From an uncultured Euryhalocaulis sp. (GTDB lineage: Bacteria > Pseudomonadota > Alphaproteobacteria > Caulobacterales > Maricaulaceae), in NCBI GenBank assembly GCA_913055605.1, contig CAJXKJ010000008.1, positions 1-64,000 of the forward strand: 64,000 nt of DNA, in the 5' to 3' direction. Below are positions 107 through 45,015 of the stretch, piece after piece. Below the pieces are notes generated by a model. The model was not told the DNA's origin. It ran no database searches and worked only from the letters and a program-made list of their open reading frames with translations. How positions within the stretch are numbered: position 1 is the stretch's first letter; each line of letters begins with the position of its first letter. The position numbers and the translations under genes are program-made.

Positions 107-109
107 CGG

Positions 110-445: not shown

Positions 446-465
446 CGTCCCGCTCCGGCTTGATT

Positions 466-487: not shown

Positions 488-493
488 GCGGCG

Positions 494-1129
494 ATGGAAA
501 CGCAAGACGGAGACGCGCCGCCCCGCGCCTACACGGCCTTCGCCGGCGAGATGCTGCTCTCGCGCGGGCCGGCGGAGACGGTGGCCCTGGCCGCGAAGGC
601 GGCGCGGGACGCCGATCCGCAGGCCGCGATCCTGATCTTCGACGACCGGACCGGACGGTCGGAGGATTTCGACCTGAGCGGGACCCCGGAGCAGATCGCC
701 GGGCGGCTGCGCGCCATCCCGGCGATCCACGCCAGACAACGGCTGGGCCTGGCCAATCCGCCCGCTTCGGCCAGCGGCAAGGGCGGGCGCGGACGGCCGA
801 AGCTGGGCGTGGTCGGACGGGAAGTGACCCTGCTGCCCCGTCACTGGGACTGGCTGGCCGAGCAGCCGGGCGGCGCGTCGGCCGCCCTGCGCCGGCTGGT
901 GGAGGAGGCGCGCAAGACGCGGCGGGGCGAAGACGCCGCGCGGCGGCGGCGCGAGGCGGCCTATGGCTTCATGTCCGCCATGGCCGGCGACCGGCCCGGC
1001 TTCGAGGAAGCCGCGCGCAGCCTGTTCGCGGGGGACATGGACGGCTTGTCGGCGCGCATCGCCGGCTGGCCGGCCGATGTGCGCGACCACGTCATGACGC
1101 TGGCCGTGGGCGAACCGCGCCCGGCCTGA
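494..1129 (+). CDS. DUF2239 family protein
   Basis: A 211-residue soluble protein. The N-terminal half reads as a small alpha/beta domain (YTAFAGEMLLSRG, then AILIFDDRTGR). The centre has the family signature GRPKLGVVGREVTLLPRHW followed by WLAEQPGGASAALRRLVEEA, typical of DUF2239. The C-terminal half is helical and rich in Arg and Ala. The signature looks like a ribbon or helix DNA-contact element of the kind found in small regulators, but the function of the family is not known to me. There is no convincing ribosome site before the ATG, and a possible -10 box lies just upstream, so a short or absent leader is likely. Confidence 0.8.
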   Translation: METQDGDAPPRAYTAFAGEMLLSRGPAETVALAAKAARDADPQAAILIFDDRTGRSEDFDLSGTPEQIAGRLRAIPAIHARQRLGLANPPASASGKGGRGRPKLGVVGREVTLLPRHWDWLAEQPGGASAALRRLVEEARKTRRGEDAARRRREAAYGFMSAMAGDRPGFEEAARSLFAGDMDGLSARIAGWPADVRDHVMTLAVGEPRPA

Positions 1130-19425: not shown

Positions 19426-19426
19426 C

Positions 19427-20857: not shown

Positions 20858-20879
20858 GCGTTTCCTCGTTTTTCTGGGC

Positions 20880-20920: not shown

Positions 20921-20959
20921 CTAGGACGCGGCCGGATTCAAGCGTGCGCCTGAGGCCGG

Positions 20960-22426
20960 TCAGAACTGATCGGCGTCCACCCAGTTGCCGTGGACCTGGC
21001 AGCGCAGGCGCATGGGGATCTCGATGCGGGCGAGCGGGCCGTTTTCGGGGTGCGCAGCCTCCATCACCCAGATTTCCGATCCCATCGTCTCGTGCAGGTC
21101 GACGACGAAGGCGAGATAGCCTTCGTGCCCGTCCTGTTTGGACGGGATGTGGACGTGCTCCTGGATCGTGCGGTGCGGGCCAAAGCCGAAGCTGCGCAGG
21201 TCGCCGGTCTTCACGTTTAGCCGGCTGATCGTGTTGAAGCCGGGGCCGACCGGACCGACGATATTGGGCGGACCCTGTTCGATGTCGAAGCGCTGGTACC
21301 AGGCGATCTCGTACTCGCGCATGAAGTCCTTGTCCGCCACGCGCGGGAAGTCGCCCGGCGGGCCAATCACGGTTTCCTTCACCGCGTCGGAATTGGCGGA
21401 CAGGTCCAGCTCCCACCGGACATAGGCGCTGCGCGCGCTGCCCGGCGTGATGTCCAGGTTGGAGGTTTCCAGCATGAAGGGGAAGGGCGGCGCGGTGGAG
21501 CGGCCGAAATCGACGAAGACTTTGTCGCCGTCGCTGAAGGCGTTCATGAAATGGAAGCTGCAGGCCGGGTCGTCATATTTGAACCAGCGCATCTCCTTCA
21601 CGCTCTGGTCGCGGCGCATCACGCCGAACCAGGTCGGCGCCTCCGGATCGAAGGCGAACATGTGGCCGCCGCCCTTCAGCCGGTCGAGATCCGCGGTGAG
21701 CGGGAAGAAGGGGAAGATGACGTGGTCCCGCGTCACGACGAAGTCGTGCATGAGGGAGGAGTACGGCCCCTCGAACCACTCTTCGCGGATCAGGTTTCCG
21801 TCCTTGTCCGCCACGCAATAGGACACGGTCTTCGAGGCGATGCCGTCGGCCTGGTAGCCGTAGAAATGCAGCTCCCCCGTCTCCGGGTCGTAGCGGGTAT
21901 GGGCGGTCATGGTGGCGGTGCGCAGCTTGCCGCCGAAATCGAAGACGCCCTTGGTCTCCAGCGTTTCGGGGTCGAGCTCGTGTGCGCGGCCGTCCTCCTT
22001 CAGCGCCAGCAGGCGGCCGCCGTGCCAGATCGGCGTGGTGTTGGCCGCGGTGCGGGTTACGCCCAGCGTCTCGGCGTCCAGGTTCTGGACAATCGGATCG
22101 TCCGTGTAGGGATTGCGGTATTTGCCGTGCAGGCCGCGGCGCGCCTTGCGCTCGGCCTTCAGCCGTTCGGTCATCACATAGCGCTGCTGGTAATCGACAT
22201 GACCGTTCTCGAACCAGACCTTCGAGACCATGCCGTCGCCGGACAGGTACGTGTCCTCCCCCAGCATCGGCGGATATTGCGGATCGGGGATGCAGCGGAA
22301 CCACGCGCCGTTGATCTCCGCCGGGACTTCGCCCTCCGCGACCACGAGGTCGTAGATCTGGGCCTCGATCCGGTTGGGGGCGTTAAAGCCCTGATAATCC
22401 ATGGTTTTCGGGAACGGTGCGGTCAT
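20960..22426 (-). CDS. Lignostilbene-dioxygenase-type carotenoid oxygenase
   Basis: A 488-residue Fe(II) dioxygenase of the carotenoid cleavage fold. The four His iron ligands are visible: H176 (MTAHTRYDP), H227 (SLMHDFVV), H292 (CSFHFMNAF) and H479 (RCQVHGNW). RNPYTDDP and LLALKEDGRAHELDPETLE give the Tyr and Lys (K143) that hold a phenolic substrate in lignostilbene dioxygenases. These enzymes split the central double bond of 4-hydroxystilbenes into two aromatic aldehydes, for example vanillin and 5-formylferulate. There is no signal peptide, so it acts in the cytoplasm. The ATG at 22426 follows GAGGGAGGGAGAT. The neighbouring aldehyde dehydrogenases and LigW-like enzyme fit the products. 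Confidence 0.85.
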   Translation of the reverse strand: MTAPFPKTMDYQGFNAPNRIEAQIYDLVVAEGEVPAEINGAWFRCIPDPQYPPMLGEDTYLSGDGMVSKVWFENGHVDYQQRYVMTERLKAERKARRGLHGKYRNPYTDDPIVQNLDAETLGVTRTAANTTPIWHGGRLLALKEDGRAHELDPETLETKGVFDFGGKLRTATMTAHTRYDPETGELHFYGYQADGIASKTVSYCVADKDGNLIREEWFEGPYSSLMHDFVVTRDHVIFPFFPLTADLDRLKGGGHMFAFDPEAPTWFGVMRRDQSVKEMRWFKYDDPACSFHFMNAFSDGDKVFVDFGRSTAPPFPFMLETSNLDITPGSARSAYVRWELDLSANSDAVKETVIGPPGDFPRVADKDFMREYEIAWYQRFDIEQGPPNIVGPVGPGFNTISRLNVKTGDLRSFGFGPHRTIQEHVHIPSKQDGHEGYLAFVVDLHETMGSEIWVMEAAHPENGPLARIEIPMRLRCQVHGNWVDADQF

Positions 22427-26584: not shown

Positions 26585-28843
26585 CTATTCGCCCGGAAGC
26601 GGCGGGCGGCCCTCCAGCAGCGAGTCGTGGATATAGGTCGCCACGTCGTGCAGCTGCTCCGCGTTATAGACTCCGCGGAAGCTGGGCATTTCGGTGCCCG
26701 GCCGGCCGGCGTCGGCGGTGTACATGATCGACTCGATGGTCAGGCCGCTGGGCAGCGGGGCGCCGATATCGTGCCCGCCCTCCCCGTTCTCGCCATGGCA
26801 GGCCTGGCAGACCGTGCGGTAGATCATCGCCCCGTTTTCCAGATCCGCGACGCGGTCGGTCTGCACCGCCGGGGGCGGGGCGAAGACGGCCGGGCCGCTG
26901 GGCGGGCCGGGACGCGCCGCGTCCTCCGGGAACTCCTCCATGTCGCCGCCGAGGGCGAACAGGAACAGGCCGTCATTGGTGCGGCCGCCGAACAGCGCGC
27001 CGCCGGCCAGCACGGTCACGTATTGCGTGCCGTTATGCATGAAGGTGGTGGCGGTGGTGTCCACCCCGCCATCGGTCCGCCATTGCCACAGGCGCTGGCC
27101 CGTGTCGGCGTCCATCGCCGTCAGCCGTCCGTCGCTGCGCCCGACAAAGATCAGGCCGCCACCGGTGGTGATGGAGCCGCGGCAGCCGCCCTCCATCTCC
27201 CGCCGCCAGCGTGCGCTGTGGTCGGTCAAATCCATGGCCGCCAGCAGCGTGCGGCGGCCGCCGCCGACGCCCGGCTGGCCGCGGAAACCGCCGCCCATAT
27301 ATTGCTGGCCCGGCGGCGGGCCGACCATCGCGTCCGGGTCGCCGCCGAAGGCGCCCCCGACGCTGTCGCCGGCGCAGATATACATCAGGCCCGTCTCCGG
27401 ACTGTAGGAGCTGGGCGGCCAGTTCACCGCCGAGGACGGGCGGTAATTGCCCGGCTGGTCGCCGGTGAAGGGCGTGAAGGTGCGGCCCCAGTTCGGCAGC
27501 AGGCCGACATACTCCTCGGACACCGCGTCGACGATATGGGGCACGACATAGTCGCCCTGGGGAATCGGCTGGGTGGCGGCGGTGGCCTGTTCCGGCGCCT
27601 GCGGCACGGGCGTGTCGATGATGGGGGTCAGCGGCTCCCCGGTCACGCGGTCCAGGATGTAGAGATATCCCCCCTTGTTCGCCTGGGCGATGCCGTGGCG
27701 GAGCACGCCGTCCACCTCCGCATCGAACAGGATGGTCGGGTTGGGGGCGTCATAGTCCCAGATGTCGTGGCGGATTTCCTGGAAGTGCCAGCGGTATTCG
27801 CCGGTGGCGATATCCAGCGCCATGATCGACACGCTGAAGAGGTTGTCGCCCGGACGGATCGCGCCGTTCAGGTCCGGCCCCGGATTGCCAGTGGAGAAAT
27901 AGATCAGGCCCAGTTCCGGATCGACGGACGGGGTCTGCCAGACCGGCGCGCCGCCATACATCCAGGCGTCGCTGTCCTGCGGCCAGGTGTCGTGGCCGAA
28001 CTCGCCCGGCCCCGGGACGGTGAAGAAGCGCCAGATCAGCTCGCCGGTCGCGGCGTCGAAGGCGTCGACCCGGCCGCGCACGCCGTATTCGCCGCCCGCG
28101 TAACCGGTGATGATCATGCCGTCGTAATAGAGCGGGGCGGAGGTGATGGAGTAGCCTTCGGCGGGGTCCGCCTCCTGCACCTCCCACAGCTTTTCGCCGG
28201 TCTCGATGTCCAGCGCGACGAGCTTTGCGTCGAGCTGGCCGACATAGACGCGGCCGTCGCCGATGCCGACGCCGCGCGACAGCCAGCCGCAGCAGATATT
28301 GGTGCCGTCGAAATCGATCCCGGCCTCATAGGTCCAGTTGATGGCGCCGGTCTCCACATCCACGGCGAAGACGTCGTTCGCGCCGGTGATGATGTAGATC
28401 ACGCCCTCATAGACGATGGGCTGGGCCTCGCCGGAGAAGCCCGGACCCGCGCCCGAGCTGTTCAGCGAGGTGCGCCAGACCGCGCCCAGCTCGCCGATAT
28501 TGTCCTTGTTGATCTGGTCCAGCGGCGAATAGCGCTGGTTGAACAGATTGCCGCCATTGGTGCGCCAGGAATCGGTCGGGTACTCCAGCAGCGCGGCGGG
28601 GCCGAACGGGTCGCCGTCGTCCACCACCTCCGTCCGCTGCACGGCGGCCTGGGTGATTTCCGCGCCATCCGCCTGTGCGGGAGCCGGGGCGGGGGCGGGT
28701 TCAGGCGCGGGCGCTTCGGCGACATCCGCCGGGGCTGCCGGTTCGGGCGCCTCGGCCGCGTCGTCGGACTCGCTGCAGGCCGCGGCGGTCAGGGCGCACA
28801 GCGCCGCGGCGCCGAGCATGATGGAGTGTTTCAGCGAGCGCAT
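26585..28843 (-). CDS. PQQ quinohemoprotein alcohol dehydrogenase, lanthanide-type, lipoprotein (copy B)
   Basis: A 752-residue paralogue of copy A. The signal ends in TAAAC, a lipobox, followed by a long Ala/Pro/Glu tether to about residue 90. C184-C185 (ICCGWLSRG) form the adjacent disulfide. Catalytic motif W362-D363-Y364-D365 again carries the second Asp expected of lanthanide enzymes, and here the metal Glu is normal (GGEYGVRG). Lys in ANKGGYLYILD contacts PQQ. Cytochrome c heme motif CQACH at 679-683. Electrons would pass from PQQ to heme c and on to the respiratory chain. Sits downstream of the MDR dehydrogenase gene by 64 bases. ATG at 28843 follows GGAAGAG. Confidence 0.88.
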   Translation of the reverse strand: MRSLKHSIMLGAAALCALTAAACSESDDAAEAPEPAAPADVAEAPAPEPAPAPAPAQADGAEITQAAVQRTEVVDDGDPFGPAALLEYPTDSWRTNGGNLFNQRYSPLDQINKDNIGELGAVWRTSLNSSGAGPGFSGEAQPIVYEGVIYIITGANDVFAVDVETGAINWTYEAGIDFDGTNICCGWLSRGVGIGDGRVYVGQLDAKLVALDIETGEKLWEVQEADPAEGYSITSAPLYYDGMIITGYAGGEYGVRGRVDAFDAATGELIWRFFTVPGPGEFGHDTWPQDSDAWMYGGAPVWQTPSVDPELGLIYFSTGNPGPDLNGAIRPGDNLFSVSIMALDIATGEYRWHFQEIRHDIWDYDAPNPTILFDAEVDGVLRHGIAQANKGGYLYILDRVTGEPLTPIIDTPVPQAPEQATAATQPIPQGDYVVPHIVDAVSEEYVGLLPNWGRTFTPFTGDQPGNYRPSSAVNWPPSSYSPETGLMYICAGDSVGGAFGGDPDAMVGPPPGQQYMGGGFRGQPGVGGGRRTLLAAMDLTDHSARWRREMEGGCRGSITTGGGLIFVGRSDGRLTAMDADTGQRLWQWRTDGGVDTTATTFMHNGTQYVTVLAGGALFGGRTNDGLFLFALGGDMEEFPEDAARPGPPSGPAVFAPPPAVQTDRVADLENGAMIYRTVCQACHGENGEGGHDIGAPLPSGLTIESIMYTADAGRPGTEMPSFRGVYNAEQLHDVATYIHDSLLEGRPPLPGE

Positions 28844-28907: not shown

Positions 28908-29918
28908 TCAGATGGCGATCGCCACCTTGCCGAAATGCTTGCCCGAAAACTCGTACTCATAGGCCTCGCGCGCCTGGTCGAAGGGGAACACCTTGTCCAC
29001 GACCGGGCGCATTCCGTTCACCGTCATCGCCTGCGCCAGCCCCTCCAGATCGACGCGCGGGCCGACGAACAGGCCGTGCAGCGTGGCGCCCTTGAACATC
29101 AGCGGGTGGGGGAACAGCCCCTCGCCCGGCGCGCCGATCACCCCGATCAGCAGGATCTGCCCGCGATAGGCGACGCACTGATACGACTTGACGAGCGTGG
29201 CGGGGCCGACGGCCTCCACCACGATATCGACGCCGCGCCCGGCGGTCAGGCGCATGACCTCGTCCTGCCATTCGGGCGTCTTGGCGTAATTGATCGTGGC
29301 GTCCGCGCCCAGCTTGCGCGCGCGGTCCAGCTTGTCGTCGCTGGACGAGGTGATGATGACCTTGGCCCCGGCCATCTTCGCGATCTGCAGGCCATAGATG
29401 GAGACCCCGCCGGTGCCGAGGCAGAGCACGGTCTGGCCCGGCTTGATCCCGGCGCGGATGACCAGGCCTTGCCAGGCGGTGGAGCCGGCGCAGGTCAGCG
29501 TCGCGGCTTCCTCGAACGACAGATCGGGCGGCGCGGCGGCGAGGCCGGCCTCCGGAAAGACGCGGTATTCGGCGAGCGCCCCGTCAAAAGGCGAGCCCAG
29601 CGCGGCGGGCTTGGCGGGCGGCGGCCCCTCGCTCCAGTTCGCGAAGAAAGCGGTGATGACGCGGTCGCCCGGCTTGAAGCGGGAGACGCCCTCGCCCACG
29701 GCCTCCACCTCCCCCGCGCCGTCGCTGAGCGGGATGGTGTCGCGCGGGACCGAGCCGCCGATATATTTGCCCGCGACGATGGCCTGGTCGCGATAGTTCA
29801 GCGCCGCGGCGCGCATGCGCACCAGGACCTCGCCCGGACCGGCCGAGGGACGCTCCATCTCCACCTGGGTCAGCCCGTCCAGGCTGTCGGCGCCTTTTTC
29901 AACGACATAGGCTCGCAT
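28908..29918 (-). CDS. MDR-family NAD(P)-dependent dehydrogenase (zinc-free type)
   Basis: A 336-residue medium-chain dehydrogenase/reductase. The GroES-like part has ALNYRDQAIVAGKY and PLSDGAGEVEAVGEG; the Rossmann part has CLGTGGVSIYGLQIAKMAGA and ends FGKVAIAI. The Cys and His zinc ligands of classical alcohol dehydrogenases are missing, which places it in the MDR7/quinone-oxidoreductase-like group. No signal peptide, so cytoplasmic. It follows the GFA gene by 14 bases and is in the same operon as the NTF2-like lipoprotein. It may reduce or oxidise an aromatic carbonyl or alkene intermediate; the substrate is not readable. Confidence 0.83.
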   Translation of the reverse strand: MRAYVVEKGADSLDGLTQVEMERPSAGPGEVLVRMRAAALNYRDQAIVAGKYIGGSVPRDTIPLSDGAGEVEAVGEGVSRFKPGDRVITAFFANWSEGPPPAKPAALGSPFDGALAEYRVFPEAGLAAAPPDLSFEEAATLTCAGSTAWQGLVIRAGIKPGQTVLCLGTGGVSIYGLQIAKMAGAKVIITSSSDDKLDRARKLGADATINYAKTPEWQDEVMRLTAGRGVDIVVEAVGPATLVKSYQCVAYRGQILLIGVIGAPGEGLFPHPLMFKGATLHGLFVGPRVDLEGLAQAMTVNGMRPVVDKVFPFDQAREAYEYEFSGKHFGKVAIAI

Positions 29919-29932
29919 GGGGCGTCTCCCTC

Positions 29933-30298
29933 TCAGTCCAGATATGTCCAGCTGTCCGCGCCGTCGAAATGACGGATGCGGACGCCGGCGTAGTCGGCCG
30001 GATCGGCCATGGCGAAATTCACCGCCATGCGCGGATGCTCTTCCGGATTCAGGCTTTCCCAGTGCGTCGTGCATCCGCACGTCGCGCAGGAGACGAAGGC
30101 CAGCATCCGGTCGCCGTGGCTGTAGCGGATCGCCGCGTCCGGCGCGGCGTCGATCGAAATCTCCTGCACGTCCGCATAGGCCCACAGCCCGCCGGCGCGG
30201 CGGCAATAGGAGCAATTGCACTGGTTCAGCCAGTCCGGCCGGCGCGGATAGGTCCAGCGCACCGCGCCGCAATGACAGGCGCCGCTGATCGCGCTCAT
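29933..30298 (-). CDS. GFA-family protein (glutathione-dependent formaldehyde-activating type)
   Basis: A 121-residue cytoplasmic protein of the Gfa/CENP-V fold. The zinc Cys sets are plain: GACHCGAVRW, NQCNCSYCRRAG and FVSCATCGCTTHW. The family's founding member adds formaldehyde to glutathione, though that activity is debated and other members have other roles. Its ATG overlaps the stop of the triple-NTF2 lipoprotein gene by four bases (ATGA), so the two are translated together. If that lipoprotein releases formaldehyde, capture by glutathione here would make sense; this is inference. Confidence 0.82.
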   Translation of the reverse strand: MSAISGACHCGAVRWTYPRRPDWLNQCNCSYCRRAGGLWAYADVQEISIDAAPDAAIRYSHGDRMLAFVSCATCGCTTHWESLNPEEHPRMAVNFAMADPADYAGVRIRHFDGADSWTYLD

Positions 30299-32403
30299 CC
30301 CTGGTCCGGCGCCAGCGTCGCCGCGCCGGTCACCGGGTTCGGATAGTGATAGGGCGGCAGGAAGGCGCTCGGATACATCTCGAACGGCAAGGAAGGCGGC
30401 AGGTCGGGCGGGTTGGCGTCGGTAATGCCCGGCGGGGTGCGCCGGTCATTGTCCTTCCAGCCCGAGGCATAGGGCGCGAAATAGGTGTTGAAGACCTGGT
30501 CGCGCTGGATCCGCCATTCGCCGTCGATTTTGGTGAAGTCGTTTTCATAGACCCCGCCCATCCACTGCGAATAGGCGCCGAACTGGCCCATGATCGACAG
30601 GGCGCGGGAGCGGATTTTCGCCGTGTCGCCGTCCGGGGCCAGCGTGATGACCGGCTGGAACTGCATGTGGTTGTGCAGCAGGCCGTGCTGTTCGCCGCCC
30701 TGTTCGCCGTACAGGTCCAGATTGCGGCGCACCGCGTCCCGGCCGACATACTGGCCGCGCATCGCGATCTCGATAATGCCGTCCTCGGTGAAGATGCCGG
30801 CCAGCGAATCCCACTGATTGTGGGCAAGATAGAAGCCGTAGATCGAGTTCAGATTCTCCAGCGCCTCGATATCCTCCAGCGCGGTGATGCGCCGCTCCAG
30901 CGATTCCAGCTGGGCGGCGAGCGCGCCGGCGTCGCCAGCGATCAGGGCGGAGTCGGGCGCGGCGGTCTCTTCGCCGGCGCCGGTGACCGGGTTGCCGTAA
31001 TGGAAGGGCGGGGTGAAGGCCGCCGGATAGGATTCGTAATCAGTGCTGGGCGGGCTGTCCGGCGCGGGATCGCTTAGCGGCGCCTCCAGCGGCAGGCCGG
31101 TCTTGCCCCAGCCGTCCTCATAGGGCGTCGCCATGGTCTGGTAATAGGTCATCGCGGCGATCTTCCAGACCCCGCCCTCATTCACGAAGTCCGTCTCATA
31201 GACGCCGGTCTCCCAGCGCGCCCATTGCCCGTGGCGCGCGCGCTGGTTCCAGCCCTGGAAGCGGCCCTGCGCGGTCATCCCGTCCGGGGCGACATGCACG
31301 GTGGGCATGATGACCATGTGATCGTCCAGCACGCCCTCCTGCGGGCCTTCCGCGCCCTGGGCCTGCAGCCAGGCGAGGATGCTGTCCGCGCCGCGATAGA
31401 TTCCCGACCCGCCCCATTCCAGCGTGGCGCCGTCCGCGAACAGGGCGGCGGCGTCCGTCCACATATGCTTGTCGATATAATAGGAGAACACGCGCTGCAG
31501 GTTCTCCGCGGCGTTTTCCGCCTCGATCCGGCTTGTCTCCTGCGTCAGCACGGCGGCGCGGCGGGCGAGGTCGTCCAGCGGCTCTGCTTCCTCGGGCGCG
31601 ACGGGCGCGGCCGGGACCGGCGCGGCGAAGCCGGTCATGGCGGCCGTGGTCTCCCCGGCCGCGTTGCGGAAATGGAAGGGCGGCAGGTGCACGCCCGGCC
31701 AGGTCTCGTACTGCACCGTCGGCGGCGCGTCGGGCTGTAGCGTCGTGACGAAGCGGCCCATGGTCGGGTCCGGCGTTTCCAGCCAGCCGGTCTCGTAGGG
31801 CACCATGACGGAATCGTACCAGTGGACGCTGTCCAGCTTCCACACGCCGTCTTCCTTCACATAGGTGTTGGTGTAGGGCCCCTCGCCCCACATGGCGTTT
31901 TCGCCGTACTGGCCGGTCAGGATGATGGCGCGCCAGCGCCCCTGCGCCGACTGTCCGTCCGGGTCCAGCGTCACGACAGGCATGACCTGGAAATGCTCGT
32001 TCAGCGCGCCTTCGGGCAGGCTGTCCTGCCCGCCGCCCAGCGCGAACAGATATTCGCGCACGCGGTCGCGGCCCCGATAGACGCCGTCCAGCGCAATCTC
32101 GATGGAGCCGCCCTCCGCGAACAGGTCGGCCATGTCCGAATACAGGCCTTCGGACAGATAGAAGCCGTAGGAGTGCTGGAGCCGCTTGATGTCGTTGGAG
32201 TCCTCGACCAGCTGGCGGCGCGCCTCCAGCGTCTCGATCCGCTGTTGCAGGGCCGCGCGTTCGGCGGCGTCCTCGCTGTCCGCCGCGTCGGTTTCGCCCT
32301 GCACGCCGTCCTCCGCCGTCTGGGTGGTCTGAACATTGTCGCCGCAGGCCGCGAGCATCAGCCCCGCGCCCAGTGCGGCCGCCGCCGGCCCCGAAAATCT
32401 CAT
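30295..32403 (-). CDS. Lipoprotein with three tandem NTF2/SnoaL-like domains
   Basis: A 702-residue lipoprotein with lipobox LAAC near residue 20. Three similar units follow, at about 65-265, 280-490 and 500-700. Each has a helix (DIKRLQHSYGFYLSEG; ENLQRVFSYYIDKHMW; ALENLNSIYGFYLAHNQW), a DLFAEGG-like turn, YRGRD or YVGRD, an HxQxxPV strand (HFQVMPVVTL, HMVIMPTVHV, HMQFQPVITL), a WKLDSVHWYDS-like strand and an end motif LPPFHF, TPPFHY or LPPYHY. Single NTF2-like proteins of this kind include the lignin-dimer lyases LdpA and PcfL, which release formaldehyde. A three-domain, lipid-anchored version is unusual. Start ATG follows GGGGAGCGG. Coupled to the GFA gene. Confidence 0.78.
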   Translation of the reverse strand: MRFSGPAAAALGAGLMLAACGDNVQTTQTAEDGVQGETDAADSEDAAERAALQQRIETLEARRQLVEDSNDIKRLQHSYGFYLSEGLYSDMADLFAEGGSIEIALDGVYRGRDRVREYLFALGGGQDSLPEGALNEHFQVMPVVTLDPDGQSAQGRWRAIILTGQYGENAMWGEGPYTNTYVKEDGVWKLDSVHWYDSVMVPYETGWLETPDPTMGRFVTTLQPDAPPTVQYETWPGVHLPPFHFRNAAGETTAAMTGFAAPVPAAPVAPEEAEPLDDLARRAAVLTQETSRIEAENAAENLQRVFSYYIDKHMWTDAAALFADGATLEWGGSGIYRGADSILAWLQAQGAEGPQEGVLDDHMVIMPTVHVAPDGMTAQGRFQGWNQRARHGQWARWETGVYETDFVNEGGVWKIAAMTYYQTMATPYEDGWGKTGLPLEAPLSDPAPDSPPSTDYESYPAAFTPPFHYGNPVTGAGEETAAPDSALIAGDAGALAAQLESLERRITALEDIEALENLNSIYGFYLAHNQWDSLAGIFTEDGIIEIAMRGQYVGRDAVRRNLDLYGEQGGEQHGLLHNHMQFQPVITLAPDGDTAKIRSRALSIMGQFGAYSQWMGGVYENDFTKIDGEWRIQRDQVFNTYFAPYASGWKDNDRRTPPGITDANPPDLPPSLPFEMYPSAFLPPYHYPNPVTGAATLAPDQG

Positions 32404-32433: not shown

Positions 32434-33102
32434 TCAGGGCAGCATCGTCCTGACGGTCTTCACCACGGCGTCCTTGCGCGTTTCCGGATCGATCTTTTCC
32501 GGCACCGCGAGCCCGCGCTGCACCGCCGGGCGCGCCTCGATCTGGTCGATCCAGCGCTTCAGGTGGTCCAGCCCGTCGATGGAGATGCCGCCCCAGCCAT
32601 GGCCGCGCGCCCAGCAGAAATTGGCGATGTCGGCGATGGAATAGGCGCCGGCCAGATATTCGTTGTCCGCCAGGCGGCTATCCAGAACCTCCAGAAGCCG
32701 GCGCGACTCTTTCTGGTAGCGCTCGATGGCGTAGGGAATCTTCTCCGGCGCGTAGCGATAGAAGACATTGGCCTGTCCCATCATCGGGCCGACCCCGCCC
32801 ATCTGGAACATCAGCCATTGCATGACGAGGCTCTCGCCCTTCTCGTCGGCGGGCATCAGCTGGCCGGTCTTCCTGGCCAGATAATGCATGATCGCGCCGG
32901 ACTCGAAGACGGCGAAGTCGCCGTTTCCGCGGTCGACGATGGCCGGGATGCGGCCGTTCGGATTGATCTTGAGGAACCAGTCTTCCTTCTGCTCCCGCTT
33001 GTCGAAGGAGATGGCGCGGACCGTGTAGTCCAGCCCCATCTCCTCCAGCGTCACGGACGCCTTGAAGCCGTTGGGCGTTCCGGCGGTGAACAGTTCGATC
33101 AT
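32434..33102 (-). CDS. Nu-class-like glutathione S-transferase
   Basis: A 222-residue cytoplasmic GST. The thioredoxin-like half begins [20 protein letters not shown], the TPNG motif typical of Nu-class/YghU-like enzymes, then [11 protein letters not shown] and the glutathione-binding [10 protein letters not shown]. The C-terminal helical half has [17 protein letters not shown], also Nu/Ure2p-like, and the capping [11 protein letters not shown]. In Novosphingobium a Nu-class GST completes beta-aryl-ether lignin cleavage by removing glutathione, which fits this locus. The ATG overlaps the stop of PQQ copy C by four bases, showing coupled translation with a periplasmic dehydrogenase. Confidence 0.85.
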
Positions 33103-35249
33103 GGTTCCTCCCGGGTGCGCTCGTTCGACTGGGCCTCCGCCTCGGCGGCCATGTCCTCATTCGCGCGGGCGATGATATAGGCGCGGATCGCCTGGGTGTC
33201 GGCGGGGTCCAGCTCCTCGTCGAAACTGGCCATGCCGGTTCCGGCCAGCGCGCCGTCCAGCACCACGGCGTCGAACGCCTCCTGGCTGTTCAGGCGCACG
33301 GTGCGGCGCAAATCCGGCAGGATGCCGACCTGGACCACCGCGCCGCCATGGCAATTGCCGCAGAACAGGCCGTACAGGCCGGCGCCCTGGCCGATCATTT
33401 CTTCGGAGGCGAACTGGGCCGGCGGAACGATGGGGGCCATCTCCAGCTCCGGCGCGGGCGGCAGCACGCCCTCGCCGTCCAGCGAGAAGATCAGCAGGCG
33501 CGAACGGTTGGCCCGCTCCATCCCCTTCATGTTGGAGTCGCCGCCGATCATGCCCCAGGAGCCGCCGGTGCCGGCGACGATGGCGACATATTGCCGGCCG
33601 TCGATTTCATAGGAGATCGGCGCGGCGATCACTCCGGTCTGGACGCCGGTTTCCCACAGCGTCGCGCCCGTGCCCGCGTCGACCGCGGTGAACAGGCCGG
33701 AGCCGGTGCCCTGGAACACCACGCCGCCGGCGGTGGCGAGCGCCCCGCCATTGGCCGGGCCGGCGCGCTCCACCCGCCAGACCTCGGACTGGGTCGCGGG
33801 GTCCCAGGCGATCAGCCGGCCATAGGTGTCGGACACGACCTCGTTCGGGTCGAGGATGGCGTTCTGGGCGAAATCGACCGCCTGGTTGGTGGTCAGCGCG
33901 TGCGCCTCGAACCCCTGCGAGCCGTCGGCATAGACGAAGGGCGAGCCGTGGATCGGGAAATAGACCAGTCCGGTTTCGGGGCTGTAGGACATCGAGTGCC
34001 AGGTGTGCGCGCCGTTCGGGTTCTGGCGCGACACGAAGGGCTCGCCGGTGCGGTAGAAGCGCGCCGCCGGGTTCTCGATCGCACGCCCGGTCTCCAGATC
34101 GACGCCGGTCGCCCAGCTGATCTCGGTGAACGGCTCGGCGGAGATCAGCTCGCCCGTCGCGCGGTCCAGCACATAGAAGAAGCCGTTTTTCGGCGCCTGC
34201 ATGATCACATTGCGGGTTTCGCCGCCGATCTCGATATCGGCCAGGATCATCTGCTGGGTCGCGGTGTGGTCCCAGGAATCGCCGTTGGTGGACTGGTAGT
34301 GCCACACGTAAGAGCCATCGTCCGGGTCCAGCGCGACGATGGAGGAGAGGAAGAGATTGTCCCCCTCCCCGTTGCTGCGCACCTGATGGTTCCAGGGCGC
34401 CCCGTTGCCGACGCCGATATAGAGCAGGTCCAGATCCGGGTCGTAGGACATGGAGTCCCAGACCGTGCCGCCGCCGCCCAGAGTCCACCATTCGCCGGAC
34501 CAGGTGTCGGCCGCCATTTCCAGCGCCGGGCTTTCGAAGCCGTCCTCCGGATTGCCGGGCACGGTGTAGAAGCGCCAGTCCAGTTCGCCGGTCTCGGCGT
34601 CATAGGCGCTGACATAGCCGCGCACGCCGTATTCGGCGCCGCCGTTTCCGATCAGCACCTTGCCCTTCACCACGCGCGGGGCGCCGGTGATCGTGTAGGG
34701 CCAGTCCAGATCGACGGTCAGGACATCCCACAGCTCCTCGCCCGTCTCGGCGTCGAGCGCGATCAGGCGGCCGTCGATCGTGCCGACAAAGACCTTGCCG
34801 TCCCACACCGCGACGCCGCGATTGACGACGTCGCAGCAGGCGTTGACCGCCCACTGGCCGTCGACCTCGGGGTCGTAGTGCCACAGACGCTCGCCGGTGA
34901 CGGCGTCGAAGGCGTTCACATGGCTCCAGGCCTCGGACACATAGAGCACGCCGTCGACCATGATCGGCGTGGCTTCCTGCCCGCGCGTGGTCTCCAGATC
35001 GGCGTACCAGTCCAGCCCCATCTCATCGACGTTATCGGCGGTGATCTGGTCCAGCGGGCTGAAGCGCTGTTCGGAATAGGTGCGGCCGTGGCTCATCCAC
35101 TGGCCGGGCTCGCTTTCGGCCCCGGTCAGGCGCGCGCCATCGACCGCGGCGGCCCCCTGTGCGAGCGCGGCGGCAGGCGAAAGCGCGGCCAGCGCCAGAG
35201 CGCCGGCGCAGCCGGCCAGAAAACGGGAACGCGAGCGGGTGCGAGCCAT
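33099..35249 (-). CDS. PQQ quinohemoprotein alcohol dehydrogenase, calcium-type (copy C)
   Basis: A 716-residue periplasmic enzyme with an ordinary Sec signal ending near ALAQG rather than a lipobox. The PQQ propeller has C138-C139 ([10 protein letters not shown]), the metal Glu in [12 protein letters not shown], Asn in GVGNGAPWN, and W326-D327-H328-T329. Thr at the +2 position is what calcium-dependent type II enzymes such as Comamonas qhEDH have. Lys is in [11 protein letters not shown]. Cytochrome c motif CGNCH at 630-634. It starts the seven-gene coupled set C-GST-NTF2-GFA-MDR-B-A. ATG follows GGGGAGGGG. It oxidises a primary or secondary alcohol and passes electrons to heme. Confidence 0.9.
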
Positions 35250-36938: not shown

Positions 36939-39056
36939 CTATTGGCGGGCCGCGTTGGCCGCCATCTGCTGGTGCGCCCGGTCGACCAGATAGGCGCGGA
37001 TCGCCGCGGTGTCGGCCGGCTGCAGCCGGTCGCCGAAGGCGATCATGCCGTTGGGCTCCAGCGCCCCGGCCAGCACGACGGCGTCGAACGCCTCCTGGCT
37101 GTTCAGGCGGACGCTGTAGCGCAGGTCGGGGAACAGGCCGCGATTGCCGAAGCTGCTTTCGTGGCACATGGCGCAATTGTCGGTGAACAGCGCCTGGCCG
37201 TCTGCGATCACGTCCGCCTCGGCGAACTGTTCGGGCGGGTTCAGGACCAGTTCCGGCGCCGGGGGCGTCGGCGGCAGGGTCTGCGTCCCGCCCAGCGTAT
37301 AGACCAGCAGGCGGGAGCCGTTGGAGTTGCCGTAACCCGGCACGCCATAGCCGACCAGCTGGGCGACATACTGCACCCCGCCCAACTCATACGACATCGG
37401 CGCGGCGACGACGCCGGCCTCGGTATCCTGGCGCCACAGCTCCTGACCGGTTTCGGCGTCGAGCGCCGCCAGCCAGCCGTCCAGCTCCGGCGAACCCGAA
37501 AAGACCAGGCCGCCGGCGGTGGCCAGCGCGCCGCTGCCGACGCGGCCCTTGATGTCGGTGCGCCAGATTTCCTCGCGCGCGACCGGGTCCCAGGCCAGCA
37601 GGCGGGCGCCGCCCCGCGGCAGGTCCGCCGCGCCGGGCTGGGTTTCCCAGATGTCGTCGGGCGCGCCGCCGCCAGTGCCGGTATTGGCCCGGCCGACGAC
37701 GGGATTGTATTCCTCCGCCGGCCCCATCACCGCCGCGGTCTCCACCAGCGGCAAATATACGAGGCCGGTTTCCGGGCTGTAGGACCAGGGATGCCAGGCA
37801 TGGGCGCCCTGGGCGCTGGGCGCGACGATGAAGGGCTCGCCGGTGCGGCCGAAGAACGCGCCCTCGACAAAGACGGGGCGGCCAGATTCGTCGATCTCCC
37901 CGGTCGTCCAGGACTGGGCGGTATAGGGCGTGCCGGAGATCAGCTCCCCGGTCGCGGCGTCCAGCACGTAGAAGAAGCCGTTCTTCGGCGCCTGCATGAT
38001 GACGCGGCGCGTCTCGCCGCCGATCTCCAGATCGGCCAGCATCATCGGCTGGGTCGCGGTGTAGTCCCAGGTCTCGCCGGGCGTTTCCTGATAATGCCAG
38101 ACATATTCGCCGGTGTCGGCGTCGACCGCGACGATGGAGGACAGGAACAGATTGTCGCCGCCGCCGGGGCTGCGGAATTCCGCGTTCCAGGGGCTGCCGT
38201 TGCCGACGCCCAGATAGACGAGGTTCAGCTCCGGATCGTGGATGATGGCGTCCCAGACCGTGCCGCCGCCGCCCAGCGTCCACCATTCGCCGTTCCAGGT
38301 TTCCGCCGCCATTTCCAGCGCCGCGTTCTCGAACCCGTTCGCGGGATTGTCGGGCACGGTATAGAAGCGCCACACGACATCGCCGGTTTCCGCATCGAAG
38401 GCGGTGACGAAGCCGCGCACGCCGAATTCCGCCCCGCCATTGCCGATGACGACCTTGCCGTTCACCACGCGTGGCGCGCCGGTGATCGTGTAGGGCCATT
38501 TGGAGTCCTGCTCCGCCACCGTGTTGACGGACCAGACTTCCTCCCCGGTCGCGGCGTCCAGCGCCACCAGGCGCGCGTCATAGACGCCGACATAGATCTT
38601 GCCGTTCCAGGCGGCGACGCCGCGATTGACGACGTCGCAGCAGCCATGGCCGCCGACCTCGCCCGGCACTTCGGGATCGTAGTGCCAGAGCTGTTCGCCG
38701 GTTTTCCCGTCGAAGGCGTAGACGTGCGACCAGGCGGTGGAGACATAGAGGACGCCGTCGATGAACAGGGGCGTCGCCTCCTGCCCCCGCTGGGTCTCCA
38801 CGTCCGCGTACCAGGCCAGGCCCAGGTCGGAGACGGTTTCGGTATCGATCTGGTCCAGCGGGCTGAAGCGCTGTTCGTCATAGGTGCGGCCGACGCTCAT
38901 CCACTGGCCGGGGTCGCCGCCCCCGGCCGCCGCCTCCAGCCGCGCCTCGTCCACCTGGGCGGGCTGGGTGGGCTGGGCCGTCGCTGGCGCCGGAGCCGCC
39001 GCAAACGCCATGGCCGTCAGGCCCAGCAGGCCCGCGCCGATCCGAAATCCCGTCAT
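36939..39056 (-). CDS. PQQ quinohemoprotein alcohol dehydrogenase, calcium-type (copy D)
   Basis: A 705-residue enzyme with a Sec signal ending near APATAQ and no lipobox. Features: C139-C140 ([16 protein letters not shown]), GNGGAEFGVRGF for the metal Glu, GVGNGSPWN, and W330-D331-Y332-T333 with Thr at +2 (calcium type). The cytochrome c domain has CAMCH at 628-632, an unusual Met between the Cys pair, and a short tail. It follows the beta-propeller lipoprotein by 56 bases. ATG after GGGGAGAG. Closest in motifs to copy C. Confidence 0.9.
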   Translation of the reverse strand: MTGFRIGAGLLGLTAMAFAAAPAPATAQPTQPAQVDEARLEAAAGGGDPGQWMSVGRTYDEQRFSPLDQIDTETVSDLGLAWYADVETQRGQEATPLFIDGVLYVSTAWSHVYAFDGKTGEQLWHYDPEVPGEVGGHGCCDVVNRGVAAWNGKIYVGVYDARLVALDAATGEEVWSVNTVAEQDSKWPYTITGAPRVVNGKVVIGNGGAEFGVRGFVTAFDAETGDVVWRFYTVPDNPANGFENAALEMAAETWNGEWWTLGGGGTVWDAIIHDPELNLVYLGVGNGSPWNAEFRSPGGGDNLFLSSIVAVDADTGEYVWHYQETPGETWDYTATQPMMLADLEIGGETRRVIMQAPKNGFFYVLDAATGELISGTPYTAQSWTTGEIDESGRPVFVEGAFFGRTGEPFIVAPSAQGAHAWHPWSYSPETGLVYLPLVETAAVMGPAEEYNPVVGRANTGTGGGAPDDIWETQPGAADLPRGGARLLAWDPVAREEIWRTDIKGRVGSGALATAGGLVFSGSPELDGWLAALDAETGQELWRQDTEAGVVAAPMSYELGGVQYVAQLVGYGVPGYGNSNGSRLLVYTLGGTQTLPPTPPAPELVLNPPEQFAEADVIADGQALFTDNCAMCHESSFGNRGLFPDLRYSVRLNSQEAFDAVVLAGALEPNGMIAFGDRLQPADTAAIRAYLVDRAHQQMAANAARQ

Positions 39057-39112
39057 TGCGCTCTCCCCAATATTGTTGTGCGCCCAAGTTTTTGGCGTCT
39101 GCGTACCTAGTC

Positions 39113-40168
39113 CTAGCGCGCGGCGACCACGCTCCAGGGCCGGCCGCCGAGCTGGATCGTCTCGATGCTTTCGCCCGCCTCCAGGTCGATCACCGTCAGG
39201 TCGCCGGACAGGCCGGCGGCGGCGTAGAGCCGCGTCTCGTCGGGCGACATGGACAGGCCCCAGTTGCGGAAGCCGGACGGGAAATAATTGGTGACCGCGA
39301 ACGTGGCGAGGTCGATTTCCCCCACCGCGTTGCCGCGGCCGAGCGCGACATAGGCGCGCGCGCCGTCGGCGGTGATCGCCATCTCCACGGCCTGGATATT
39401 CTCTTCCACGAAATCGGGCGTGCCGGGGCCGCCGAAGCCGACCGTCTCCACGATTTCCCAAGTCGCCGCGTCGATGATCTCCACGCTGGCGCCGACCTCG
39501 GACGAGACCAGCAGGCGCGAACCGTCCGGCGTGAACACCGCGTCGCGCGGGCGGGTGCCGACCGGCACCTCCGCCACCACCGCGCCGGTTTCGGCGTCGA
39601 AGATATGCGCCAGGCTGTCGACCTCCGACGTCGAGACGACGAAGCGGCCGTCCGGGCTGACCGTCATGCCTTCGGGCTCCCCGCCCGTCGGCACGGTGCG
39701 GGTCACCGTGTTGCTGGCGATGTCGAGGAAGGAGACATAGGCGTCGTCCTCATTGGCGATATAGATCGTGCCGCCATCCGGGCTGATCGCGAAGCGCTCC
39801 GGGTCCGGGCCGGAATCCAGCCGCCCGACGACCTCCGCCGTGGCGGTGTCGATCACGTCGATCGCGTTGTCGTTGCTGACCGCGACATAGAGGCGGGCGC
39901 CGTCGGGGCTGAGCCGCATGCCGCGCGGGCGCTCGCCCACCGCGATCTGGCCGGTCTCGGTCAGCGTGTCCGGATCGATGACGTGGACGACATTGCTTTC
40001 CTCGTTGGAGACATAGACGCCGCCGGCAGCGGCGGCGGCCGGCGCTGAATCGCCGGCCGTGTCCGCGCTGTCTCCGGACTGTCCGCAGGCGGCCAAAGCG
40101 AGCGCGGCGGCCAGACTGGCGGCGGCCCAGCTGGCGGCGTTGGCGGAGCGGGACGTGCGGTGGGTCAT
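39113..40168 (-). CDS. PQQ-dependent catabolism-associated beta-propeller lipoprotein
   Basis: A 351-residue lipoprotein with lipobox LAAC. The mature part is a seven-bladed YVTN-type propeller: repeats VYVSNEESNVVHVIDPDTL, LYVAVSNDNAIDVIDTAT, IYIANEDDAYVSFLDIAS and so on, each with an SPDG turn. This matches the TIGR03866 family, found next to PQQ-enzyme catabolic clusters; its role there is not established, and a docking, sensing or assembly partner is possible. It contains no catalytic motif I can see. The ATG at 40168 has GGAAG upstream; an ATG ten codons earlier has no ribosome site. Sits between PQQ copies F and D. Confidence 0.82.
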   Translation of the reverse strand: MTHRTSRSANAASWAAASLAAALALAACGQSGDSADTAGDSAPAAAAAGGVYVSNEESNVVHVIDPDTLTETGQIAVGERPRGMRLSPDGARLYVAVSNDNAIDVIDTATAEVVGRLDSGPDPERFAISPDGGTIYIANEDDAYVSFLDIASNTVTRTVPTGGEPEGMTVSPDGRFVVSTSEVDSLAHIFDAETGAVVAEVPVGTRPRDAVFTPDGSRLLVSSEVGASVEIIDAATWEIVETVGFGGPGTPDFVEENIQAVEMAITADGARAYVALGRGNAVGEIDLATFAVTNYFPSGFRNWGLSMSPDETRLYAAAGLSGDLTVIDLEAGESIETIQLGGRPWSVVAAR

Positions 40169-40249
40169 GATGTCTTCCGTACCGGTTTGCTTAAACATAA
40201 TGCAGGCTGCCGCCCGGTTCCTGAGAGCGGTCTTAGTTTCGTTGCGCGC

Positions 40250-42514
40250 CTATTGGCCATGAAGGCCGGACGCCTCGGCTTCCTCGGTCTCCTCATCCCC
40301 GGCGGGCGGCGCGGCCGGTCCGCCGCGCGGGCCGGGATCCTCGCCGGCGGCTTCCCGCTCCTGCGCGTCGTGGGCGAGCGCGACGACATAGGCGCGGAGG
40401 GCGTGCGTGTCCGCCTCCTCCAGCTCCGCGGCGAAGCTGGCCATGCCGTTATCGGCCAGCGCGCCGCCCAGGACGACGGCGTCGAAGGCGGGCTGGGCCT
40501 GGATGCGGGCGCTGCGCCGCAGATCCGGGAAGGTGGAGCGCGCCTGGCCGTCATCGCCGTGGCAGATGGCGCAGTTCTTTTCGAACAAATCGGCGCCGTG
40601 ATCGATCTCCACGGCTTCGGCGAACTGTTCGGGCGGATTGATCGGCGGGGGGACGTAGTCCACCGGCGCCGGAAGCACGGCCGTGCCGCCCAGCTTGAAC
40701 ACCAGCACGCGGGAATAATTGGGCGCGTAATAATAATCCGCCGCCCGGCCCGGAACGACGGCGACATATTGTTCGCCGTCCAGTTCATAGCTGATCGGCC
40801 CGGCGGTGACGCCGGTCTGCGGATCGAAATCCCAGAGCTGTTCGCCGGTCTCCGCGTTATAGGCGACGAATTCCACGTCCGCATTGCCCTGGAAGACCAG
40901 ATTGCCGGCGGTGGTCAGCGTGCCGCCATAGCGGCCCTCGCCCTCGAACGGATGCTCCCAGACCTTTTCGTTGGCGACCGGGTCCCAGGCCAGAAGCGAG
41001 CCGCGCTGGGGGAATTCCAGTTCGGCCGGCATCTCCGGAAAGTCCGGCCCGAAATGCACCGCGCCGGTATTGGTGCCGACCTCGCTGAACACGAATTCCT
41101 CCGGGTTCTGGAAGGCCATGCTGCTGTAGCGCGCCTCCAGATAGACGAGGCCCGTGTTGGGGTTGAAGGAGATGGGGTGCCAGCTGTGCCCGCCGGCCGG
41201 GCCCGGGGTCAGCCAGAAGACCTCCCCGGTCTGGTCGTAACGGGCCTCCGGATTGGGGATCGGCCGGCCGCCCTCGTCATGGCCCAGCGCCCAGTTCACC
41301 GGGACGATATTGTTGGCGGAGAGGAACTCGCCGGTCGCGGCCTCCAGGACGTGGAAATAGCCGTTCTTCGGCGCCTGCATCACGACGCGGCGCGGGCCGT
41401 CCGGAAAGTCCAGCGTGGCGACCATGATCGGGGCGGTCGCCGTATAGTCCCAGGTCTCGCCCGGCGTGGTCTGGTAGTGCCAGACATAGTCGCCGGTGTC
41501 CGGGTCCAGCGCGATGATCGAGGCCAGAAACAGATTGTCGCCGCCGTCCGGGCTGCGGATCGACTGGTTCCAGGGCGAGCCGTTGCCGGAGCCGACGAAC
41601 AGCAAATCGGTTTCCGGGTCATAGGCCATGCCGTCCCAGACCGTGCCGCCGCCGCCATATTTCCACCACTCGCCGGTCCAGGTCTGCGCCGCCATTTCCA
41701 TGGCCGCGTTCTCGAACCCGTCGGCGGGGTTGCCGGGCACGGTCCAGAAGATCCAGTCGCGGTCCCCGGTCTCCGCGTCATAGGCGGCGACATAGCCGCG
41801 CACGCCGAACTCCGCGCCGCCGGCGCCGATCACCACCTTGCCCTTCACCACGCGCGGGGCGCCGGTGATGGCGTAACGGTTGGCGGGCAGGTTTTCGACG
41901 TCGAAGGTGCGGGTCGACCAGACCTCCGCCCCCGTCCAGGCGTCCAGCGCCACCAGACGGCCGTCGATCGTGCCGACATAGATTTTGCCGTTCCAGGCCG
42001 CGACGCCGCGATTGACCACGCCGCAGCAGGCGTTCTGCTGCCACTCGCCTGGGACTTCAGGGTCGTATTTCCAGACCTGCTCTCCGGTGCGCGCATCGAA
42101 GGCGTAGACCTTCGACCAGGCGGTGGAGACATAGAGCATGCCGTCCACCATGACCGGCGTGGCTTCCTGGTTCTGGTTGGTGTCGAGGTCCGCGAACCAG
42201 GCGAGGCCCAGCTGGTCGACATTGTCCGTCGTAATCTGGTCCAGCGGGCTGTAGCGCTGTTCCTCCAGCGTGCGGCCGGGGGCCATCCACTGTCCCGGTT
42301 CGGCGTCGGCGTTCAGCAGGCGCTCTTGGTCCACCGCGGCGTATTGCGGTGCTGCGGGTTCCGGCGCGGGCGCCTCGGCCGTCTGGGCGGGCTCAGCCTC
42401 GGGGGCGGCGGGCGCCTCGGCGGTCTGGTCCTGTCCGCAGGCGGCGAGCGCCAGCGCGAAGACCGAACCCAGCGCCGCGGCGCGCAGCGCGCCGGTCCTG
42501 GCGATCCTGTTCAT
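40250..42514 (-). CDS. PQQ quinohemoprotein alcohol dehydrogenase, calcium-type, lipoprotein (copy F)
   Basis: A 754-residue enzyme. The signal ends ALALAACG, a lipobox. A 25-residue Pro/Ala/Glu tether follows. C163-C164 (NACCGVVNRG), GAGGAEFGVRGY, GSGNGSPWN, and W355-D356-Y357-T358 with Thr at +2 mark a calcium-type enzyme. PQQ-contacting Lys in APKNGYFHVLE. Cytochrome c motif CAICH at 648-652. The C-terminal tail after the heme domain is long, acidic and Pro-rich (GPRGGPAAPP), unlike the other copies. ATG after GGGAGG. It lies 64 bases after copy G. Confidence 0.9.
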   Translation of the reverse strand: MNRIARTGALRAAALGSVFALALAACGQDQTAEAPAAPEAEPAQTAEAPAPEPAAPQYAAVDQERLLNADAEPGQWMAPGRTLEEQRYSPLDQITTDNVDQLGLAWFADLDTNQNQEATPVMVDGMLYVSTAWSKVYAFDARTGEQVWKYDPEVPGEWQQNACCGVVNRGVAAWNGKIYVGTIDGRLVALDAWTGAEVWSTRTFDVENLPANRYAITGAPRVVKGKVVIGAGGAEFGVRGYVAAYDAETGDRDWIFWTVPGNPADGFENAAMEMAAQTWTGEWWKYGGGGTVWDGMAYDPETDLLFVGSGNGSPWNQSIRSPDGGDNLFLASIIALDPDTGDYVWHYQTTPGETWDYTATAPIMVATLDFPDGPRRVVMQAPKNGYFHVLEAATGEFLSANNIVPVNWALGHDEGGRPIPNPEARYDQTGEVFWLTPGPAGGHSWHPISFNPNTGLVYLEARYSSMAFQNPEEFVFSEVGTNTGAVHFGPDFPEMPAELEFPQRGSLLAWDPVANEKVWEHPFEGEGRYGGTLTTAGNLVFQGNADVEFVAYNAETGEQLWDFDPQTGVTAGPISYELDGEQYVAVVPGRAADYYYAPNYSRVLVFKLGGTAVLPAPVDYVPPPINPPEQFAEAVEIDHGADLFEKNCAICHGDDGQARSTFPDLRRSARIQAQPAFDAVVLGGALADNGMASFAAELEEADTHALRAYVVALAHDAQEREAAGEDPGPRGGPAAPPAGDEETEEAEASGLHGQ

Positions 42515-42578
42515 CCCATCCTCCCAGAGGGCCGGGCGATCGTTCGGCGCCACCCGGCCTTTCACGTCTCTCGGGCGC

Positions 42579-44852: not shown

Positions 44853-45015
44853 CATATCCTCCCCAAACGCGCAGACGGCCTTCGGACGGGCCGCTCTTGC
44901 CGCATTCATATATATTATCGGGACAAACTGCGCCCGCCCCGCAAAGCGGCGCAAGTCACAACATTCTTAATTGCTTGTAATGGCCGCCCGGCGCGCGGCT
45001 GGGGGGACGAGCGCC

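Follow-up and report, generated by a model that had tools for sequence, protein, structure and literature searches.

A predicted lipoprotein with three fused LdpA-like domains from an uncultured Euryhalocaulis sp., a candidate exported trimer for the breakdown of aryl dimers

We analysed 64,000 nucleotides of DNA from an uncultured Euryhalocaulis sp. (assembly GCA_913055605.1, contig CAJXKJ010000008.1, positions 1 to 64,000; hereafter the window) and within it a minus-strand gene at 30295..32403, which begins with ATG and encodes a 702-residue lipoprotein with three SnoaL_4/NTF2-like domains, the triple protein. We propose that this is an exported, covalently linked LdpA-like trimer carrying out the stilbene-forming deformylation of aryl dimers of the LdpA/PcfL type, and we put the probability of this reading slightly above one half (about 0.53). 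The computed basis consists of three LdpA-like domains, an export signal, confident packing of the domains, a conserved histidine, an old three-part family and the company of pathway genes. The structure is well supported; the reaction and the compartment are what we infer.

Results

Three related domains behind an export signal

SnoaL_4 (PF13577) was the sole Pfam family found in the triple protein at an E of 0.1, where it covers three stretches (E 7.1e-75; 249.5 bits against a gathering cut-off of 24). These correspond to domain 1 (residues 47-252, 31648..32265), domain 2 (residues 276-475, 30979..31578) and domain 3 (residues 492-695, 30319..30930), all on the minus strand. Over about 200 residues each the repeats are 36% (1 v 2), 37% (1 v 3) and 35% (2 v 3) identical, with pairwise E of 2e-49 to 2e-44, far above chance level. 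The N-terminus reads MRFSGPAAAALGAGLMLAAC followed directly by GDN, a signal peptide (residues 1-20; 32344..32403, minus strand) with the lipobox LAAC at residues 17-20. Signal peptides, lipobox and twin-arginine motifs were judged by eye from the sequence throughout. Genes were called with a home-made codon-usage script; the codon positions of the triple gene are gene-like (GC3 0.88) and the purine-rich GGGGAGCGG lies directly upstream of its ATG.

A first-pass annotation, made from the letters of the window, had described a three-repeat lipoprotein, and this description holds, as does its proposal of export, which the signal sequence predicts. It had further described one core common to all repeats. 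We found this core in most motifs: YRGRD at 109, YRGAD at 336 and YVGRD at 552; HFQVMP at 137, HMVIMP at 362 and HMQFQP at 579; and the closing PPFHF at 241, PPFHY at 465 and PPYHY at 683. Repeat 2 is looser than claimed, with YRGAD in the first motif and HMVIMP, which is not HxQ, in the second.

The modelled domains resemble LdpA

An AlphaFold2 model of the triple protein was built with an alignment of 40 three-domain proteins. The whole chain has a mean predicted local distance difference test score (pLDDT) of 89.8 and a predicted template modelling score (pTM) of 0.90, with pLDDT below 50 at residues 1-25. Each modelled domain combines a long N-terminal helix (residues 40-84, 276-311 and 492-527) with short helices and a four-stranded sheet of long strands. 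Since the pTM of 0.90 extends over three domains, their mutual placement is predicted with confidence. The closest solved structure is LdpA (8abv; Z 23.4, root-mean-square deviation 1.6 over 200 aligned residues of domain 1), and the next structural family is LinA with Z 16.4, a gap of 7 Z units. The alignments of single LinA and BaiE chains extend over two model domains (287..654, 49..463), which hints that the C-terminal tails may be swapped between the modelled barrels.

By its title, 8abu is the H97Q mutant of NaLdpA with erythro-DGPD, and 8abt and 8abu differ by H to Q in the aligned motif. His97 (NaLdpA numbering) is present in all three domains of the triple protein as H137, H362 and H579. 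Thus neither a foreign fold nor a pocket without any residue of the lyases was encountered: the fold is NTF2-like as first suggested, and the histidine mutated in LdpA is shared. The suggested kinship to LdpA is likewise upheld by the top structural match and by an identity of about 35% per domain. In the numbering of LdpA from Sphingobium SYK-6, position 36 (Asp) is S, D and A, and position 97 (Gln) is M, M and Q, in domains 1, 2 and 3, with Gln583 following His579 in domain 3 as in LdpA. Since these residues vary by domain, the three pockets differ; the repeats may, as the first-pass annotation raised, have different substrates.

Sets of three domains persist whether fused or split

Genome contigs were searched with three proteins of the own genome (the triple protein and two paralogues), which gave 79 loci. 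This list favours three-domain loci, because the queries had three domains and the best 80 of 95 were kept. Domains were found with a domain hidden Markov model (HMM) at a cut of 90 bits and then clustered, and own-genome pieces retrieved twice (L001-L009) were excluded. Exactly three domains were present in 66 of 93 clusters; the remaining 27 held one (13), two (7), four (5) or six (2), and several of the two- and four-domain clusters are explained by a contig end or by a third domain below 90 bits. Among the 66 triplets, 44 are encoded in one gene, 14 as three genes (1+1+1, one of them doubtful), 6 as 1+2 and 2 as 2+1. We doubted that L049 is a true 1+1+1 set, as its domains are spaced as in a fused gene and the third one begins with an ambiguous residue; it was omitted from the fused/split count and retained in the trees. 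Two loci (L024 8416-12597 and L025 7792-12010) have 1+2+3 genes that together encode six consecutive SnoaL domains, like a split and a fused triplet adjoining.

On a tree of 198 domains (FastTree, with long-branch warnings) the position label 1, 2 or 3 needs 7 changes where the minimum possible is 2. Shuffled labels needed 93.9 changes on average, and none of 200 shuffles was as low as observed. The fused or split state changes 6 times on the concatenated tree (65 labelled rows). So three ancient paralogous domains appear to have remained together and in order, fused or not. This is most simply read as an obligate trimer with subunits that specialised and, more than once, became joined or split. 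An obligate trimer or heterotrimer fits because the sets of three are kept in both states and the positions are separate old lineages. These sets, together with the pTM, favour the built-in trimer of the first-pass annotation as the probable arrangement.

As a less biased check, a single-domain model was run over 119 genomes of one family (E 1e-45 cut, at most 27 candidates scored per genome). Matches were found in 12 genomes. Seven of them hold clusters, each of exactly three domains, with single matches outside the clusters too, and five hold single matches only (one of the five is fragmented). In SYK-6 we found 37 domain matches, 27 of them in nine three-domain open reading frames (ORFs) and 3 in a split set. 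The latter (L072) consists of three consecutive genes with overlapping ends, each with a signal peptide. Three of the three-domain SnoaL ORFs of SYK-6 are consecutive (3035762-3042411, L136) and lie about 17 kb from a lignostilbene dioxygenase (LSD) gene at 3017755.

The first-pass annotation had taken the architecture to be new, and we can rule out that it is confined to this genome: fused genes make up two thirds of the complete triplets (44/66), SYK-6 alone has nine, and many distant metagenome-assembled genomes (MAGs) and sphingomonads carry triplets as well. In the open-licence literature searched, neither a title nor an abstract dealt with fused triple SnoaL proteins. The triplet architecture is thus widespread, yet undescribed in that searchable literature.

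The LdpA histidine is kept at positions 1, 2 and 3 in 19, 43 and 65 of the 66 triplets, and Gln97 in 38, 37 and 64. All three histidines occur in 10 of 66 triplets, the window protein among them. Since the histidine is near-invariant at position 3, this position is the constant catalytic candidate.

Lignostilbene dioxygenase genes adjoin the triple genes of the nearest relatives

On the tree the three nearest relatives of the window protein are L023 (Acidobacteria), L035 and L049 (both Gammaproteobacteria). In each, the triple gene has an RPE65-family (LSD) gene as its same-strand neighbour, with no gene called in between, and the LSD product starts with a twin-arginine motif (NRRTF, NRRSF and DRRSF, respectively). 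The LSD gene of L023 has a three-domain gene on either side, and no other RPE65 match at E 1e-10 was found in its genome, a MAG. At L031, L032 and L039 an LSD gene without a twin-arginine signal lies directly upstream. Four histidines, which we take to be the iron ligands, are invariant in 11 of 11 LSD sequences compared. No title or abstract on an LSD exported by the twin-arginine (Tat) system was present in the open-licence literature searched.

The presence of families near loci was scored with HMMs built from window genes alone, on contigs of which many are short. An LSD gene was near 10 of 72 triplet loci and 0 of 11 single-domain loci, numbers too few to separate the two. BLAST clustering placed genes like those for alcohol dehydrogenases dependent on pyrroloquinoline quinone (PQQ-ADH) in 37 loci (single linkage, perhaps wider). 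Of 13 separate-gene (1+1+1) sets, whose genomes are mostly related sphingomonads, 11 have a PQQ-ADH frame on the same strand no more than about 0.7 kb away. Genes for HpcH/HpaI aldolase, aldehyde dehydrogenase (ALDH) and BKACE recur near triplets (L072 2386-6889 and other loci), which suggests another pathway at those loci.

Genes around the triple gene in the window

The triple gene is part of a tight minus-strand run with overlaps or short gaps. Its first gene (33099..35249) encodes a PQQ-ADH with a C-terminal cytochrome c and a signal peptide (TIGR03075, 619 bits, cut-off 480). A YfcG-like glutathione S-transferase gene (GST; 32434..33102) overlaps it by 4 bases, and after the triple gene come a GFA-family gene (29933..30298; Pfam glutathione-dependent formaldehyde-activating enzyme, E 9.5e-10), which overlaps the triple gene by 4 bases, a zinc-type/quinone-oxidoreductase-like dehydrogenase gene (Zn-ADH; 28908..29918) and a PQQ-ADH/cytochrome c lipoprotein gene (26585..28843; TIGR03075 429 bits, below the cut-off of 480). 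A further PQQ-ADH gene is found at 24205-26295, and three more (36942-39056, 40253-42565 and 42582-44855) lie with a beta-propeller gene at 36939..44855 on the minus strand, which brings the PQQ-ADH/cytochrome c genes to six within 21 kb (24205-44855).

A second run (16402-22426) contains an LSD gene, two ALDH genes and a LigW-like gene, the following all on the minus strand. The LSD-family protein (20960..22426) is NOV2-like, scores 616.5 bits against a cut-off of 650 and has the four invariant histidines. One ALDH (19427..20857) is FerD-like and 57.5% identical to the SYK-6 ALDH encoded beside a LigW-like gene. The LigW-like protein (17983..19035), a putative 5-carboxyvanillate decarboxylase, is 53% identical to the product of the SYK-6 gene in the LigW2 position, and its best match in the Protein Data Bank (PDB) is the 5-carboxyvanillate decarboxylase 4inf (1.6e-125).

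Two neighbours were considered for a part in the pathway and set aside. The GST was tried as an etherase of the LigE/F type, and its best solved relatives are 6tum and 4eci (about 328 bits), followed by YfcG-like proteins, with 145 bits only for 5uun, which we take to be the Nu-class GST of N. aromaticivorans. The GFA protein was not used as proof of formaldehyde release because the GFA family is weakly characterised. In SYK-6 a GFA gene adjoins an LSD gene.

Comparison with the pathway genes of SYK-6

Window genes were compared with seven SYK-6 stretches. We found homologues of the LSD (44.5%), GFA (39%), Zn-ADH (49%), ALDH (57.5%) and LigW-like (53%) proteins, all within 38 kb holding LdpA. 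Three of these would be lsdA, ferD and ligW2, as judged by matching their positions to locus numbers printed in PMC12997858. The same paper gives pcfL, ferD, ligW and lsdD as Saro_0796, 0797, 0799 and 0802, and counts 62 homologues in the NTF2 set of SYK-6. According to PMC11323797, the beta-5 pathway of N. aromaticivorans comprises PcfL, LsdD, FerD and LigW, and PcfL is an LdpA homologue of 44% identity that shares 8 of 11 LdpA active-site residues.

The window LSD is 46.7% identical to the SYK-6 copy at 3.018 Mb, 44.5% to the copy in the LsdA position and 36.9% to that in the LsdD position. Since it is less like the LsdD-position copy, a beta-1 or other dimer is as likely as a beta-5 dimer. 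The SYK-6 LSD gene most like that of the window (3017755) lies about 4 kb from a single-domain relative (L105), which is 40-43% identical to the window domains. The window thus holds candidate genes for the later steps; for the first, the triple protein is the one LdpA-like candidate encoded in it.

Triplets and pathway genes in the own genome

Besides the triple gene, the own genome carries another three-domain gene on contig C2, one more at the end of contig C65, and a 1+2 pair on C27. A match at E 1e-20 was present in 0 of 60 near relatives, and at 1e-30 in 2 of 289 genomes of a class sample, own genome included (only 11 candidates scored per genome). At 1e-60, a LigW-like gene was found in 0 of 60 near relatives and twice in the own genome, and LSD-family genes number 7 in the own genome against at most 3 in any of the 60. 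From this distribution the island looks acquired. With LdpA as query the own genome yields triplet members (E 1.3e-28 to 1.7e-17), including the single-domain member of the 1+2 pair, and beyond these nothing better than E 4.5e-6. An LdpA orthologue outside the triplets was thus not detected in the own genome by LdpA as query (PcfL was not queried).

In the C2 stretch L016 8321-14922, the flanks of the three-domain gene hold two genes for single-domain SnoaL proteins with signal peptides, one for a beta-propeller-like lipoprotein and one for a PQQ-ADH; transporter-like genes lie upstream (all named by eye). In the C65 paralogue (L017 12257-14497), which is truncated by the contig end, the stretch of about 130 residues preceding domain 1 is of a different kind. 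The second LigW-like gene (C1:85103-86098) encodes a protein 40% identical to that of the window. The PQQ-dehydrogenase family model has 22 matches at 1e-20 in the own genome, two frames being matched in two pieces. Two tandem LSD-family genes with twin-arginine motifs (C2:46165-49159; L141 3160-6166) encode proteins 50-52% identical to the LSD of L035, and these are predicted to be exported.

Discussion

We propose that the triple protein is a membrane-anchored, exported, covalently linked trimer of LdpA-like NTF2 barrels. The three barrels would form a pseudo-threefold trimer in place of a homotrimer or a three-gene heterotrimer, and at least domain 3 would be catalytic. By a cofactor-free loss of formaldehyde of the LdpA/PcfL type it would convert a beta-1 or beta-5 aryl dimer to a stilbene, in the periplasm or at the membrane surface, after or alongside oxidation by PQQ dehydrogenases. 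The stilbene would then be cleaved by a lignostilbene dioxygenase and the products passed to the FerD-like and LigW-like enzymes encoded in the window. Trimer symmetry, catalysis, substrate, formaldehyde release and the compartment of each step are the parts of this scheme that we infer.

Several findings weigh against it. The triple gene and the LSD gene lie in separate operons, 7.9 kb apart with an opposite-strand gene between them. By eye, none of the window's dioxygenase, ALDH, LigW-like, GFA and GST proteins showed a signal peptide; the pathway would therefore need to cross the inner membrane. The identity to LdpA of about 35% per domain is below the 44% between LdpA and PcfL, and the equivalent of Asp36 is kept solely in domain 2, that of Gln97 solely in domain 3. 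In 62 of 72 triplet loci there is no LSD gene within 11 kb (the 10 with one include the window), so other clades may do other chemistry. PQQ-ADH genes are near 29 of 72 triplet loci and also near 4 of 11 single-domain loci; such nearness therefore does not mark triplets, and we abandoned it as a mark.

A less probable reading keeps the fold and the trimer but has the protein catalyse another periplasmic reaction, in which no formaldehyde is released: it would act as a dehydratase, isomerase or hydrolase on compounds that the PQQ dehydrogenases consume or produce. The PQQ-ADH frames beside 11 of 13 1+1+1 sets would suit this, as would the scarcity of LSD genes at triplet loci (10 of 72) and the recurrence of the BKACE, HpcH/HpaI aldolase and ALDH families. 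BaiE, LinA and scytalone dehydratase-like proteins share the fold, and PMC12314914 predicts that MgaD of Pseudomonas NGC7, a SnoaL_4 protein, acts as an isomerase. What speaks for deformylation instead is that the three nearest relatives in the window clade carry an LSD-family gene beside the triple gene, and that LdpA leads the next family by 7 Z units as a fold match.

The loss of the LdpA histidine from position 1 in 47 and from position 2 in 23 of the 66 triplets, and the partial retention of the Asp36 and Gln97 equivalents in the window protein, would be expected of a protein that is mostly non-catalytic and instead binds or shuttles hydrophobic aryl dimers in the periplasm, presenting them to PQQ dehydrogenases or importers. 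We consider this improbable, since position 3 retains its histidine in 65 and its glutamine in 64 of 66 triplets and all three domains of the window protein have the histidine. More improbable still is a chain of three enzymes that work independently, without forming a trimer, each on a dimer or stereoisomer of its own. The positions are indeed distinct old lineages with differing pocket residues, but a whole-chain pTM of 0.90 and the survival of sets of exactly three through fusion or fission, with 6 fused/split changes on the tree, argue for an assembled trimer.

Beyond the triple protein itself, we tentatively suggest, without as yet favouring it, that in some bacteria the stilbene route of lignin-dimer breakdown runs outside the inner membrane, with oxidation of aryl dimers or oligomers by PQQ enzymes, deformylation by the trimer and cleavage by Tat-exported LSD in the periplasm. 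The exported covalent trimer and the LSDs with Tat signals in relatives would together place the cleavage of lignin fragments there, and such a route would let cells cut oligomers too large for import through the inner membrane. The word 'periplasm', for which we looked, is absent from the pathway papers PMC12997858 and PMC11323797. An exported trimer would also assign a function to some of the many NTF2 homologues of SYK-6 and could serve as a membrane-anchored catalyst in lignin valorisation. The triplets, fused and split, are a natural case in which to test how trimers of like subunits turn into heterotrimers and single chains.

Among known systems, BaiE (bile-acid 7-alpha dehydratase), the scytalone dehydratase-like 3ef8 and LinA have the NTF2 barrel in common with the triple protein (Z 14.4-16.4), but they are weaker matches and single-domain chains. 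The three-domain ORFs of SYK-6 and its three-gene set (1330504-1332610) agree with the triple protein in domain count and, where the tree includes them (L065 and L072), in domain order. In the three-gene set the domains are three separate proteins, each with its own signal peptide, and adjoin a PQQ-ADH gene. No function for these ORFs or for the three-gene set was given in the open-licence literature searched. PcfL (phenylcoumaran gamma-formaldehyde lyase, Saro_0796) is likened to the triple protein by gene company, as the window has LSD, FerD-like and LigW-like genes.

The closest system is LdpA of SYK-6 and N. aromaticivorans (PDB 8abt-8abw), which is alike in fold (Z 23.4), N-terminal helix, the mutated histidine and the SnoaL-like core. 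SYK-6 LdpA is a single-domain protein that begins MADVETRLAE and has no signal peptide, whereas here three domains of about 35% identity each are joined in one lipoprotein. The three domains and the lipobox place the triple protein in an LdpA-like sister family, so it is not an LdpA orthologue, but it may work as an LdpA trimer made in one piece.

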